DNA from: Cryobacterium sp. N22
GTDB taxonomy: Bacteria > Actinomycetota > Actinomycetes > Actinomycetales > Microbacteriaceae
Assembly (NCBI RefSeq): GCF_002929555.1
Contig: NZ_PJJP01000031.1
Location: 28,042 to 92,041 of the forward strand
Direction: 5' to 3'
DNA length: 64,000 nucleotides
The stretch's first letter is position 1; each line of letters begins with the position of its first letter. Below, one piece after another: positions 58,573 to 62,180 of the stretch. The position numbers and the translations under genes are program-made. The notes under the pieces are model-generated. The model made no database searches. It was not told where the DNA came from and saw nothing but the letters and a program-made list of their open reading frames with translations.

Positions 58573-58660
58573 GCACCCCCTTCGTGGGGCGACCGCCGCC
58601 GCCATCCGAAACGCACAATAAGTGTTGCGCAATGACTGTTGTTCTTATACGGTCGAGGTC

Positions 58661-59248
58661 ATGGCTCCCCGCGACACCCAGCGCAGCACACTCACGTCGG
58701 CCGCCTCGATGCGGGTGCTGGCGCATCCGACCCGGCTGCGTCTGCTGGGTCTGCTGCGCGAGCGCGGACCGCAGACCGCGGCGCAGCTCGGCGACATCGT
58801 GGACGAGGCCCCCGGCACCATCAGCTATCACCTCGGCAAGCTGGCCTCCATCGCGTTGATCGAGCCCGCCGAGGCTCAGAGCAGCGACCAGCGCGAACGC
58901 TGGTGGCGGGCCACGACCGCTCTCACCAGTTGGGAGCCCGCCGACCTGCTCGACGACCCCGACAAGCTCGCCGCGTCGGCCAGCCTGCAAAAGTCCATCG
59001 CCCAGGCCTACGCCGCCCGGTACACCGACTACATCGACGCGACGCCGACCCTGCCGCGTGAATGGGTGGGCGCCGCCGCCAGCGGCGACCGCAGCCTGCG
59101 CCTGACCGTGGCGGAACTCACCACCATGCGCGCCGAACTCGAGGCGCTCGTCGAGCGATGGGTCGAGACCGGTGCCGCCCACGACCCCGCCGGCACCGAC
59201 GGCGCCGAAGCCGTGGTGCTCGTCTACCAGGCCTACCGCCGCCCCTGA
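58661..59248 (+). CDS. ArsR-type HTH transcriptional regulator
   Basis: A winged-helix regulator of 195 aa. HTH residues ~15-75: STLTSAASMRVLAHPTRLRLLGLLRERGPQTAAQLGDIVDEAPGTISYHLGKLASIALIEPAEA. A C-terminal domain of ~110 aa follows with a Trp-rich segment. No Cys metal site of the ArsR/SmtB kind is present, so the signal is probably not a heavy metal. The ATG follows GAGG. It is 12 bp upstream of the MFS gene, so it probably regulates it; TTGCGCAA at 58625-58632 might be its operator. Confidence 0.85.
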   Translation: MAPRDTQRSTLTSAASMRVLAHPTRLRLLGLLRERGPQTAAQLGDIVDEAPGTISYHLGKLASIALIEPAEAQSSDQRERWWRATTALTSWEPADLLDDPDKLAASASLQKSIAQAYAARYTDYIDATPTLPREWVGAAASGDRSLRLTVAELTTMRAELEALVERWVETGAAHDPAGTDGAEAVVLVYQAYRRP

Positions 59249-59260
59249 CCCGGCCCGCCG

Positions 59261-60550
59261 ATGACCATGCCCACAGCGGATGCGCGCCCGCGCGACCGCC
59301 GCGCCACCGGTTCCCTCTCCGCGCTGCTCGCCGCGCACGCCATCTCCCAAACGGGAAACGTGGTGACCGCGTTCGCCATCCCCTTCTACGTACTCGGCCT
59401 GGGCGGCTCGGGGGTCGAGGTAGGCATCGCCGCGTTCTTCGCCACCGCCCCGGTGGTGATCGGCGGCGCGCTCGGCGGGGTCGTCGTCGACCGGGTGGGT
59501 CACCGCCGCGCGGCCATCGTCGCCGACCTGGTGAGCGGAGCGACCGTGTTGACCATCCCGGTGCTCGCCCTCACCGTCGGCCTGCCGTTCTGGGCGCTCC
59601 TGCTGCTGGTTTTCGCCGGCGGCCTGCTCGACACCCCCGGGCAGACCGCCCGCCGGGTGATGTTGCCGAGCCTCACGGCTCGCGCGGGAGTGCGCCTCGA
59701 GCAGAGTGTGGGCCTGCTCGACGGGTCGGAGCGGTTCGCGAAGCTGATCGGCGCCTCCATCGCCGGGCTGCTCGTCGCGCTGGTGGGGCCGATGGCGGCC
59801 CTGTTCGTCAACGCCGCCACCTTCGCGATCTCGGCGCTGCTCACCTGGCTGTTCGTGGCCGCCACGCCCGCCGACACCCTTCGACCCCCGGCCCCGGACC
59901 GCTCCGACGCACCCCGAACCAGCTACTGGGCCGACCTGGCCGAGGGCTTCCGGTTTGTCATCCGTGACCCGCTGATGCGGCTGATTGTGGGCCTGGTTCT
60001 CGTCACGAACCTGTTCGACGCCGCCCGCGGAGCGACCCTGCTCCCCCTCTACGCGAACGACCGCCTGGGCGGCGCGGCTGCGCTGGGTCTGCTGGTGGCG
60101 GTCATGGGCGGATGCGCCCTGGTCGGCAACGTCGCCTTCGGCTTCGTCGCCCACCGCGTTCCCCGCCGGGTGACGTTTGCGGTGTGCTTCGCCCTGGCTG
60201 GCGGGCCCTCGAGCGCCGCCTTCGCCCTCGGCGCCCCGCTTCCCGTTCTCGTGGCCCTGACCGCGCTGTCCGGCCTGGCCGCCGGAGCGATCAACCCGAT
60301 CCTGGGCACCGTGGAGCTGGAGCGCATCCCCGCGCACATGCGCGGCCGGGTATTCGGTCTGATCAACGCCGGCGCCTGGGCGGGCGTACCGTTCGGGGCG
60401 CTGCTCGGCGGTATCGCTGCCGACACCATCGGCCTGGCGGTGTCCTTCGGCATCGTCGCCGTGCTCTACACACTCATCACGCTGAGCCCGCTCACCGGCG
60501 GCGCCTGGCGGCAGATGGAGCGGCGGCCGGGACCGGCATCCGGCACCTGA
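59261..60550 (+). CDS. MFS transporter, EntS/MFS_3 type
   Basis: A 429-aa inner-membrane protein with 12 segments. SLSALLAAHAISQTGNVVTAFAIPFYVLGLGGSG opens the first segment, GVVVDRVGHRRAAIVADLVSG gives the loop 2-3 motif, and GVRLEQSVGLLDGSERFAKLIG is typical of the enterobactin-exporter-like/MFS_3 group. It forms an operon with the ArsR gene. It may export a hydrophobic drug or metabolite; the substrate is unknown. Confidence 0.87.
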   Translation: MTMPTADARPRDRRATGSLSALLAAHAISQTGNVVTAFAIPFYVLGLGGSGVEVGIAAFFATAPVVIGGALGGVVVDRVGHRRAAIVADLVSGATVLTIPVLALTVGLPFWALLLLVFAGGLLDTPGQTARRVMLPSLTARAGVRLEQSVGLLDGSERFAKLIGASIAGLLVALVGPMAALFVNAATFAISALLTWLFVAATPADTLRPPAPDRSDAPRTSYWADLAEGFRFVIRDPLMRLIVGLVLVTNLFDAARGATLLPLYANDRLGGAAALGLLVAVMGGCALVGNVAFGFVAHRVPRRVTFAVCFALAGGPSSAAFALGAPLPVLVALTALSGLAAGAINPILGTVELERIPAHMRGRVFGLINAGAWAGVPFGALLGGIAADTIGLAVSFGIVAVLYTLITLSPLTGGAWRQMERRPGPASGT

Positions 60551-60618
60551 GCCGCCGCGGGTGCCCGCGCCCGCCCGCTCCCGCCCGTGGCCGCCCGTGG
60601 TCTGCGCCAGGCGCGGTA

Positions 60619-60678
60619 TGCGGGTCAGGCGCCGCTATGCGGGTGGCGCGCCACCCGCACAGCGGCGCCTTGCCCGCA
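60619..60678. repeat. 60-bp palindromic repeat, copy 7
   Basis: Core 60639-60658, arms TGCGGGTCAGGCGCCGCTAT and ACAGCGGCGCCTTGCCCGCA. It lies in the gap between two same-strand genes (60550 and 60850), immediately followed by a decayed copy. Confidence 0.9.
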
Positions 60679-60688
60679 GAACGAGGTA

Positions 60689-60742
60689 TGCGGGTCCGGC
60701 GCCGGTACGCGGGCAGGGCGCCACCGGCGCGCGCCACCCGCG
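60689..60742. repeat. decayed copy of the 60-bp repeat (copy 8)
   Basis: TGCGGGTCCGGCGCCGGTAC, then GCGGGCAGGGCGCCACCGGCGCGCGCC and CACCCGCG: the left arm is recognisable and the centre has changed by insertion and substitution. Ten bases lie between copies 7 and 8. Confidence 0.7.
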
Positions 60743-60817
60743 TGGAGGCGTATGACCAGCGCAGCACCGCGCGCCGGGCACACCCGTGTCAGAACCGATA
60801 AACTGTACCCATAGGTC

Positions 60818-60849
60818 ATCCTCCACCCCGTCGGGCGGAGGATTTTTTT
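60818..60849 (+). promoter_or_regulatory. leader hairpin with U-tract, overlapping the ribosome binding site
   Basis: ATCCTCC (60818-60824) pairs with GGAGGAT (60837-60843), with inner CCC/GGG pairing, followed by seven T (60843-60849) directly before ATG at 60850. The GGAGG in the 3' arm is the Shine-Dalgarno of the GNAT gene. So one element can act as intrinsic terminator and hide the ribosome binding site. Confidence 0.65.
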
Positions 60850-61374
60850 ATGACCACTCCACAGCCAGCCCCATTCGCCATCACCATCGCGCAGGATGCC
60901 GACCGTCCTGCCCTGGAACGGCTCTGGGCACTCTTCCGACACGACATGTCCACCCACACCGGTGTCCTCCCCGACCGAGACGGTCGATTCCGGCAGGAAA
61001 GGTTGGCTGCAGGCTTCGATGCTCCCGGCTGGCGCGTCTATCGCATGAGCCTCGGCGGCGGCCCGGTCGGCCTCGCCGTTGTGCGCGCACTCGACTCCGA
61101 CGAGCGGGTCCTGAGCAGCTTCTTCATCGTGCGGGGCGCCCGCCGGGGCGGACACGGTCTGAGCGCCGCTCGGTTCGTCATTCAACAGCATTCCGGCGCG
61201 TGGGCGGTGGCGTTCCAGGACGCCAATCGTCCCGCCGCACGGTTCTGGCGTCGGGTGGCAACGGATGCGGCGGGCACCGCCTGGTCCGAGCAGCACCACC
61301 CGGTTCCCGACCGGCCCGATCTGCCGGCCGACACCTGGATCCGGTTCAGCACCGAGGCATCCGCCAACCGCTAG
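60850..61374 (+). CDS. GNAT family N-acetyltransferase
   Basis: An acetyltransferase of 174 aa. VLSSFFIVRGARRGGHGLSAARFVIQQ carries the acetyl-CoA binding loop (R-x-G-G-H-G with R-G). WAVAFQDANRPAARFWRRVATDA is the GNAT N-x-x-A-x-x-F-W segment. The GGAGG site lies inside the leader hairpin, so expression may be controlled by that structure. Substrate unknown; it begins the last small operon region. Confidence 0.83.
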   Translation: MTTPQPAPFAITIAQDADRPALERLWALFRHDMSTHTGVLPDRDGRFRQERLAAGFDAPGWRVYRMSLGGGPVGLAVVRALDSDERVLSSFFIVRGARRGGHGLSAARFVIQQHSGAWAVAFQDANRPAARFWRRVATDAAGTAWSEQHHPVPDRPDLPADTWIRFSTEASANR

Positions 61375-61452: not shown

Positions 61453-61845
61453 ATGACACGGTTCGCCATCGACTCGGCAGTCGCCCTCCTCCTGATCCGG
61501 GACGGCCGGCGGGTGCCCGACCACCATGAACTGGTGGCACCGTCCTTGCTGCGTTCGGAGGTGCTGTCCCGGCTTTACCGGGAGGTGCGCATGGCCCTCC
61601 TGGACGATGCCGCGGCACGCCGGCAACTCGACGGTCTGGCCGGCTTGAAGATCCACCTGCTGACCGATCGGGTGTCCCGGTCCACCGCCTGGAAGATCGC
61701 CACCGAGCTCGACTGGGACGAGATCGGGCCGGCGGAGTACCTCGCCGTGGCCACCCTCCAGGCCGATGCCCTCGTGACGGAGGACGACCGACTGGTCGGC
61801 CAGCGGCTGGTGCCGATCGCGGCCTACGACGACCTCTTCGCATGA
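61453..61845 (+). CDS. PIN-domain protein (VapC-like), no antitoxin seen
   Basis: A PIN-fold protein of 130 aa. FAIDSAVALLLI has the first metal-binding Asp, APSLLRSEVLSRLYREV the Glu (R-S-E-V-L), and AEYLAVATLQADALVTEDDRLV the last acid cluster (T-E-D-D-R). It matches VapC-like ribonucleases. No candidate antitoxin with ribbon-helix or AbrB fold lies within 78 bp upstream, and the 335 bp downstream (61846-62180) hold only repeat copy 9. It may be a solitary PIN nuclease or a remnant. Confidence 0.72.
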   Translation: MTRFAIDSAVALLLIRDGRRVPDHHELVAPSLLRSEVLSRLYREVRMALLDDAAARRQLDGLAGLKIHLLTDRVSRSTAWKIATELDWDEIGPAEYLAVATLQADALVTEDDRLVGQRLVPIAAYDDLFA

Positions 61846-61898
61846 CCATGCACCGCAGCCGCACCCCACCGGTCGCCTGACACCCGCCGACTGAGCTG

Positions 61899-61958
61899 CG
61901 CGGGCCACGCGCCGCTGGGCGGGTGGCGCGCCACCCGCCCAACGGCGCCTCACCCGCG
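61899..61958. repeat. 60-bp palindromic repeat, copy 9
   Basis: Core 61919-61938. The arms are CGCCGCTGG and CCAACGGCG instead of CGCCGCTAT and ATAGCGGCG: the AT pair next to the core has been exchanged for GG/CC in both arms (one further C-A mismatch). It lies between two same-strand genes; the remaining bases to 62180 show nothing else. Confidence 0.9.
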
Positions 61959-62180
61959 CACCGCAAGAAACGCCGTTCGGCCAGGCGTCTGGCCCACAAC
62001 GTGACTCCTGGAGAGTGGGCGTGAATGAGTGGCCCTCCTCGTGATCCTCCGGGCCGAGTGGATGTCGGCAGACGACGTCGCCGCGGCCCCGGTGTCGGCG
62101 GACGTCCTCGACAGTCCCCCAGGTGGGCCACCCTAGGCTGAGCCCATGCAGAGCGTCATCGTGCCCCGGGACCAGAGCTG

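Follow-up and report, generated by a model that had tools for sequence, protein, structure and literature searches.

The gene for a GNAT-family acetyltransferase in the analysed window, a 64,000-nucleotide stretch of the Cryobacterium sp. N22 genome, is preceded by a hairpin whose 3' arm contains the Shine-Dalgarno (SD) sequence and whose T-run leads directly into the start codon. We consider this element, with a probability of roughly 0.6, to be a promoter-proximal attenuator that has been stripped to its output part and has no sensor, and that in this genome also acts as a lock on the SD sequence. Conditional control of the GNAT gene, which the preliminary description had suggested for this leader, is a plausible idea that the comparison with related sequences now supports, and a constant low setting of the gene is possible.

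Table 1. Positions of the leader elements and of the GNAT gene in the window.
Feature	Position	Strand	Basis
-10-like hexamer TAAACT, without a clear -35	60799..60804	+	sequence
Outer inverted repeat GGTCAT/ATGACC, can pair across the start codon	60814..60855	+	sequence, fold
5' arm of the hairpin, AUCCUCC, with the anti-SD core inside	60818..60824	+	sequence, fold, covariation in orthologs
Inner stem of three pairs with its 4-nt loop, CCC-CGUC-GGG	60826..60835	+	sequence, fold
3' arm, GGAGGAU	60837..60843	+	sequence
GGAGG, the only SD of the GNAT gene, within the 3' arm	60837-60841	+	sequence
T-run, seven T, SD-to-start spacer and terminator-type tail	60843..60849	+	sequence, leader comparison
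GNAT-family acetyltransferase, 174 aa	60850..61374	+	profile, predicted structure, Foldseek

Structure and putative promoter of the leader

As summarized in Table 1, the hairpin has an outer stem of seven pairs (A60818-C60824 with G60837-T60843) and an inner stem of three pairs (C60826-C60828 with G60833-G60835), which are separated by the mismatch A60825.C60836, and the loop occupies positions 60829-60832. T60843 closes the stem and is the first of the seven T that end at T60849, the ATG starts at 60850, and the distance from GGAGG to the ATG is 8 nt. The earlier statements that a hairpin with a U-run surrounds the ribosome binding site of the GNAT gene and that seven T run straight into the ATG proved exact to the base. 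The outer repeat, GGTCAT (60814-60819) with ATGACC (60850-60855), was seen in the leader of this genome.

The G+C-rich hairpin with a U-run immediately 3' has the form of an intrinsic terminator, and its terminator d-score is above 0. The hairpin was absent from the output of the consensus terminator scan, presumably because of its internal mismatch. The folding energy of the predicted leader (60811-60849) is −17.2 kcal/mol (z = −3.26), and the segment 60800-60880 gave z = −3.14; each value was equalled by 1 of 200 shuffles. The claim that one structure could stop transcription or block translation is supported. The claimed rarity also held: in the genome of 4.06 Mb, the pattern CCTCC-N3-20-GGAGG-N-TTTT occurs at two sites, and at a single site when an ATG is required and the loop may be 3-30 nt, while the reversed-pattern control gave 0 in both cases. 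With a covariance model of the leader, the only further match in the genome at E<0.01 was the opposite strand of the same site. The arrangement of hairpin, SD sequence and T-run is not due to chance.

As for the promoter, TANNNT ending 8-18 nt 5' of the hairpin arm was found in 30 of 39 leaders, compared with 4 of 390 background windows further upstream; 5 of the 44 leaders were omitted from this count because the script did not recognise their 5' arm, and some misses are assignment errors (e.g., L006, L158 and L160). Judged from its sequence, TAAACT is a good -10 box in the window, and it places the putative transcript start near 60811, 5-10 nt 5' of the hairpin, with a predicted leader length of only about 40 nt. 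A leader of that predicted length would have no space for a riboswitch, T-box or leader peptide. With this predicted start site, the terminator-like hairpin would sit between the promoter and the gene, as in an attenuator, and no start codon is present between the start site and the hairpin.

Control by WhiB7 was considered as a candidate, and no WhiB7-type AT-rich box was found by eye 5' of the -10 box. In L124, L126 and L157, a common stretch containing an inverted repeat such as CCGTC-N5-GACGG lies some 20-60 nt 5' of the -10 box and is perhaps an operator.

Conservation, pairing and detached forms

In the nearest orthologs, the order of elements is TANNNT, usually 10-13 nt, a hairpin with the SD sequence in its 3' arm, a T-run, and ATG. 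This anatomy was found in 11 of the 12 best-scoring genes of the family, the window's own included. In a tree of 67 GNATs, built by a quick method with the labels assigned beforehand, the fused leader (-10-like box, hairpin with SD, T-run, ATG) is present in 22 of the 23 members of the window's clade; the whole tree comprises 30 fused and 10 detached members and 27 without the hairpin, with four changes of the hairpin/no-hairpin label. Short, broken or duplicate proteins such as L009 and L086 were excluded from the tree, L088 is a long, broken row, and L122 was labelled as having none, yet a hairpin like it lies some 200 nt upstream. The hairpin has been lost from L010, inside the window's clade, and is absent from L177, and L176 has lost the 5' arm.

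The conservation check proposed in the preliminary description gave a positive result, the leader being kept with the GNAT gene across actinomycete families. Named carriers include Curtobacterium, Frigoribacterium, Frondihabitans, Agreia, Glaciihabitans and Agromyces, all of which we take to be Microbacteriaceae, and Streptomyces resistomycificus; the GNAT gene of the Agromyces carrier is broken. Order- and class-wide searches (396 and 394 genomes) added further families (L091-L094, L118, L121 and L124-L126), and the more distant GNAT paralogs showed no such hairpin leader. A strict leader test was positive in 33 of 92 GNAT rows, with duplicates and distant paralogs counted and some leaders recognised by eye being missed (L006, L016 and L094). 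Among 310 coding ORFs used as a control, the seven positives were 4 GNATs and the pattern-fetched loci L137, L138 and L146, and 14 of 6600 shuffles were positive.

The alignment of 11 leaders has a stem of 11 pairs, 4 of which show compensated changes. Across 44 leaders, the arms belonging together form 8.1 of 9 pairs versus 6.7 of 9 for exchanged arms, a difference that none of 5000 permutations equalled, although the figure is inflated by sequence relatedness and a few arms were misplaced by the arm finder (e.g., in L002, L006, L007, L012, L092, L094 and L165). A G.U pair is present in the SD helix of 19 of the 44 leaders, which fits RNA and not a DNA palindrome. The SD sequence lies inside the stem in all fused members, in the form GGAGG, GAAGG or TGAGG, and the SD-start spacer contains at least 4 T in 44 of 44 leaders; the loop varies in sequence and in length (3 to 21 nt). 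The best single-hairpin folds range from −11.6 to −41 kcal/mol with G+C-rich stems. The d-score is positive in only 34 of the 44 leaders. T-tails are weak in L014, L091 and L118 and in the detached L109-L114, L117, L123, L170 and L173, and termination may be poor in such members.

The best 11 matches of the covariance model made from these 11 leaders were the training sequences themselves; among the weaker matches, of which 19 family loci were inspected, were sequences that resemble the family's ordinary terminators; the tail TTTTCTTGT recurs in several of them, and some directly follow a tRNA-like sequence. As these apparent terminators match the model and several have the same tail, the leader has the local-terminator form, with stem letters that also make the SD sequence. 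At a short contig end (L049, complement of 116-192), the element GCCTCGACC..GGTTGAGGCTTTTTTTATG is followed by a short frame unlike GNAT. In L088 (Agromyces), a remnant resembling a tRNA 3' end directly precedes the hairpin, and ARAGORN finds no tRNA in it.

In the detached form, the promoter-side hairpin is kept and the GNAT gene has an SD sequence of its own and starts at a distance of 17 to about 120 nt downstream; the genome searches yielded L069, L109-L114, L116, L117, L119 and L123 as such loci. From held-out PLSDB plasmids (14 records, 12 of them read with H2 and H3 left out, and L178 repeating L170), 11 distinct GNAT loci were obtained, of which 1 is fused, 8 are detached and 2 lack an intact hairpin, and the promoter-side hairpin is thus present in 9 of the 11. 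Closure of the SD sequence is not universal, since a detached start with its own SD was found in 8 of the 11 plasmid loci and in 10 of the 67 tree rows. The hairpin and T6 are kept despite a downstream GNAT SD in L069, L116, L162, L167, L168, L171, L172 and L174. This persistence of the hairpin suggests that termination is its older or more general role and that SD closure was added later, the direction of the change not being settled by the tree. A leader peptide in the detached form was considered as a candidate and set aside: the ORFs from the post-hairpin ATG, mostly translated by eye, look mutually unlike, with 22 codons in L162.

Proposed mechanism and alternative explanations

In the attenuator mechanism proposed here, RNA polymerase would start about 7 nt before the hairpin, as the -10 box suggests, and within about 40 nt the nascent RNA would fold the G+C-rich hairpin with the U-run behind it. 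Most transcripts would end at the hairpin, near 60846-60850. In the readthrough RNA, the same hairpin is predicted to close the only SD sequence and, in this genome, partly the start codon, and the GNAT gene would be kept low by this double lock. Because the leader has no space for a sensor domain, release would act on the hairpin or the polymerase itself, whether through a factor of the NusA/NusG type, through altered elongation, or through a protein that binds the RNA and opens the 5' arm. Since the unrelated GNAT and MFS families have a common leader, we favour, as a tentative guess, that an altered termination machinery brings about the release. As the signal, either an RNA-binding protein or a transcription factor that targets the terminator is possible. 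The other two signals that had been suggested fared worse: translation of a leader is unlikely because no ORF stands ahead of the hairpin, which begins only 5-10 nt after the predicted transcript start, and temperature is unlikely because the stems are G+C-rich over the whole range of folding energies given above. With −17.2 kcal/mol at 37 °C, the structure over the SD sequence of the window is not the weak melting stem of an RNA thermometer.

The hairpin could also answer no signal, and only set a low basal level by constant down-tuning or protect the 5' end of the mRNA. No sensor or alternative fold was seen, the loop is not conserved, and the hairpin starts no more than about 10 nt from the predicted 5' end, all of which would suit this reading. 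However, a terminator and an SD lock kept in such distant relatives, and in two gene families, would be costly for a constant setting, and we regard this explanation as rather unlikely. Another reading gives the hairpin a translational function only: it would hide the SD sequence, the T-run would be an unstructured A/T spacer, and a protein or another RNA would open the lock. The placement of the SD sequence in the stem of every fused member agrees with it, as do tails such as CTTTCGCGT (L014), which are poor terminators; but it leaves the hairpin and T6 of the detached loci with their own SD unaccounted for, together with the identity of the tails to those of ordinary terminators of the family, and it is clearly improbable.

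The remaining alternatives can be given little weight. That the hairpin terminates the upstream MFS gene (ending at 60550) and has merged with the next start codon, as the preliminary description had allowed, would suit the co-directional MFS gene of the window and the similar terminator that follows a tRNA-like sequence in L059. However, a -10 box lies between the MFS gene and the hairpin, and the leader is conserved while the neighbours change; by crude gene calls, 14 of the 39 leaders with a called upstream ORF have the nearest one pointing away, and in L084 an opposite-strand tRNA gene lies just upstream. Because the gene moves and the leader moves with it, assignment of the hairpin to the upstream gene found poor support and is very unlikely. 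A DNA operator, with the inverted repeat as a repressor site, is suggested by arms that are palindromic in some members and by the site just after the -10 box, but G.U pairs break the DNA symmetry in many leaders, the loops differ widely in length, and the T-run and SD sequence are kept, all of which leaves it hardly credible. An upstream sensor, as in a riboswitch, T-box or leader-peptide attenuator, has in its favour that in relatives (L138-L145) such systems end in a hairpin of this form and that guanidine-IV-type riboswitches control GNAT and MATE genes (PMC9788692). Against it, no Rfam aptamer matched at the leader at the gathering score or E<=1, no T-box sequence was seen by eye in 60700-60817, the promoter box directly precedes the hairpin with no ORF in between, and the loop is not conserved; the probability of such a sensor is very small.

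If the attenuator reading is extended, the leader may be a cassette of only about 45 nt, made up of promoter, terminator, SD and start, on mobile detoxification genes (GNAT and MFS) of actinomycetes, with the transcription machinery itself as the sensor. A drug or stress that slows RNA polymerase or alters NusA/NusG-dependent termination would then open both genes, without a ligand-binding RNA, leader peptide or dedicated regulator. This extension is speculative and is offered as a long shot. Attenuators are usually found through their sensor part (aptamer, T-box or uORF), and an output-only leader would escape such searches. The leader is also a short, easily built system for asking whether the efficiency of termination can itself be a signal. 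Through this leader, the mobile GNAT family and the MFS family are marked as probably co-regulated, a hint that may aid the search for their substrates.

Related leaders and the GNAT gene

The strict pattern before an ATG was found at 14 places in 148 genomes of the class. With gene names assumed from the sequence, these are 5 ileS genes behind a T-box (L139-L143, where the T-box was presumed from its consensus), a binding-protein gene behind a cobalamin riboswitch (Rfam), an ilvB gene, a cimA-like gene preceded by a leader peptide that has three Ile codons, 2 GNAT genes, 2 MFS genes, and 2 without assignment. The output part therefore ends known attenuators, and in the GNAT and MFS leaders it follows the promoter directly. 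In 150 genomes of the family, the pattern occurs at 9 places, comprising 1 GNAT, 1 MFS, and 7 that have no clear gene or follow other features. The Streptomyces-type pattern, searched in 56 genomes of one genus, gave 12 places in 12 genomes, 8 before one MFS family and 4 before GNAT genes (one detached); the MFS genes with this leader in Streptomyces-type genomes match TIGR00900 below the cut-off.

Among open-licence PMC papers, this GNAT/MFS leader was not found described. The closest systems in print are the rimP-leader, then cplR, and the guanidine-IV-type riboswitches. The rimP-leader is a terminator without a visible antiterminator, 4-130 nt before the gene, which may include the ribosome-binding site and for which the general factor NusA was proposed as the regulator (Naville and Gautheret 2010, PMC2965389). 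The GNAT leader likewise has the form of a terminator that includes the SD sequence, and no visible antiterminator. However, the rimP stem is GGGc...gCCC with G on the 5' arm and precedes rimP-nusA-infB (PMC2965389), whereas the stem found here, CCUCC...GGAGG, has a C-rich 5' arm and the SD sequence in the 3' arm, and precedes GNAT and MFS genes. The cplR leader of Clostridioides difficile shares the terminator hairpin, the SD in an arm and the U-run, and termination as well as closure of the SD was shown to contribute there, but it has a uORF and an antiterminator (PMC10201436); the GNAT leader has neither. In the constructs tested for the guanidine-IV riboswitch and the Gd4v motif, the terminator runs with 7 U into the start codon, before GNAT and efflux (MATE) genes; these motifs depend on a further hairpin upstream and on a pseudoknot whose bases are conserved (PMC9788692), in contrast to the GNAT leader, which has no upstream hairpin and no conserved loop.

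Two actinobacterial systems are also similar. The ileS T-box has a near-identical output part in L139-L143 (CCTCC...GGAGG, T6, ATG) and differs by its upstream tRNA-binding part (PMC7583486), which the GNAT leader lacks. The whiB7 leader is a drug-response attenuator, and the WhiB7 regulon includes GNAT and MFS genes, but that leader is long, with a uORF and an antiterminator (PMC10727445).

The assignment of the protein to the GNATs is based on its predicted structure, which has the GNAT fold (pLDDT 85.6) and for which Foldseek found many GNATs at E about 1e-7, indicating the fold only and no substrate. No Pfam cut-off was reached (best Acetyltransf_6, E 0.014), Pfam and NCBIfam gave no name, and a sequence search of solved structures gave no match. 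The gene is rare: among 57 genomes of the genus, 3 gave significant matches, and the only strong match was the window's own, and in 24 of 398 genomes of the family. In the named genomes, a single-protein search gave no match and an alignment-based search gave 23 loci; none was found in phages. The gene is mobile, occurring on plasmids and beside transposase and recombinases, and some plasmid GNATs adjoin a Tn3 transposase, a tyrosine recombinase or an adenylyltransferase-domain gene. No conserved neighbourhood was found, with common neighbours in fairly close relatives only. From this spread and these neighbours, the protein is probably a mobile acetyltransferase used against some toxic compound.

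Several individual loci deserve mention. In Frigoribacterium faeni (L009/L071), the GNAT gene has an in-frame TAG at codon 59, and the frame and leader are otherwise intact. Two Streptomyces-type loci contain a guanidine-III riboswitch (L084 4366-4434 and L124 3346-3408), in each case some 1.8 kb beyond the start of the GNAT gene, and repetitive proteins with many mutually similar segments follow the GNAT gene in L069/L115.

In the window, an ArsR-type regulator and then an MFS transporter (TIGR00900/Tap-like) lie just upstream of the GNAT gene (58622-60550). Intergenic palindromic repeats with the core GCGGGTGGCGCGCCACCCGC flank the GNAT gene and the next gene (60613-60747 and 61892-61965); their 58-nt unit is present in 3 copies of 62-100% identity that form long hairpins. 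Rfam gave only sub-threshold matches on the locus, mostly to miRNA families on the upstream repeats. About 80 nt after the GNAT gene, a small ORF (61453-61845) has a sub-threshold PIN-domain match (E 0.094) and possibly encodes an orphan toxin-like protein.
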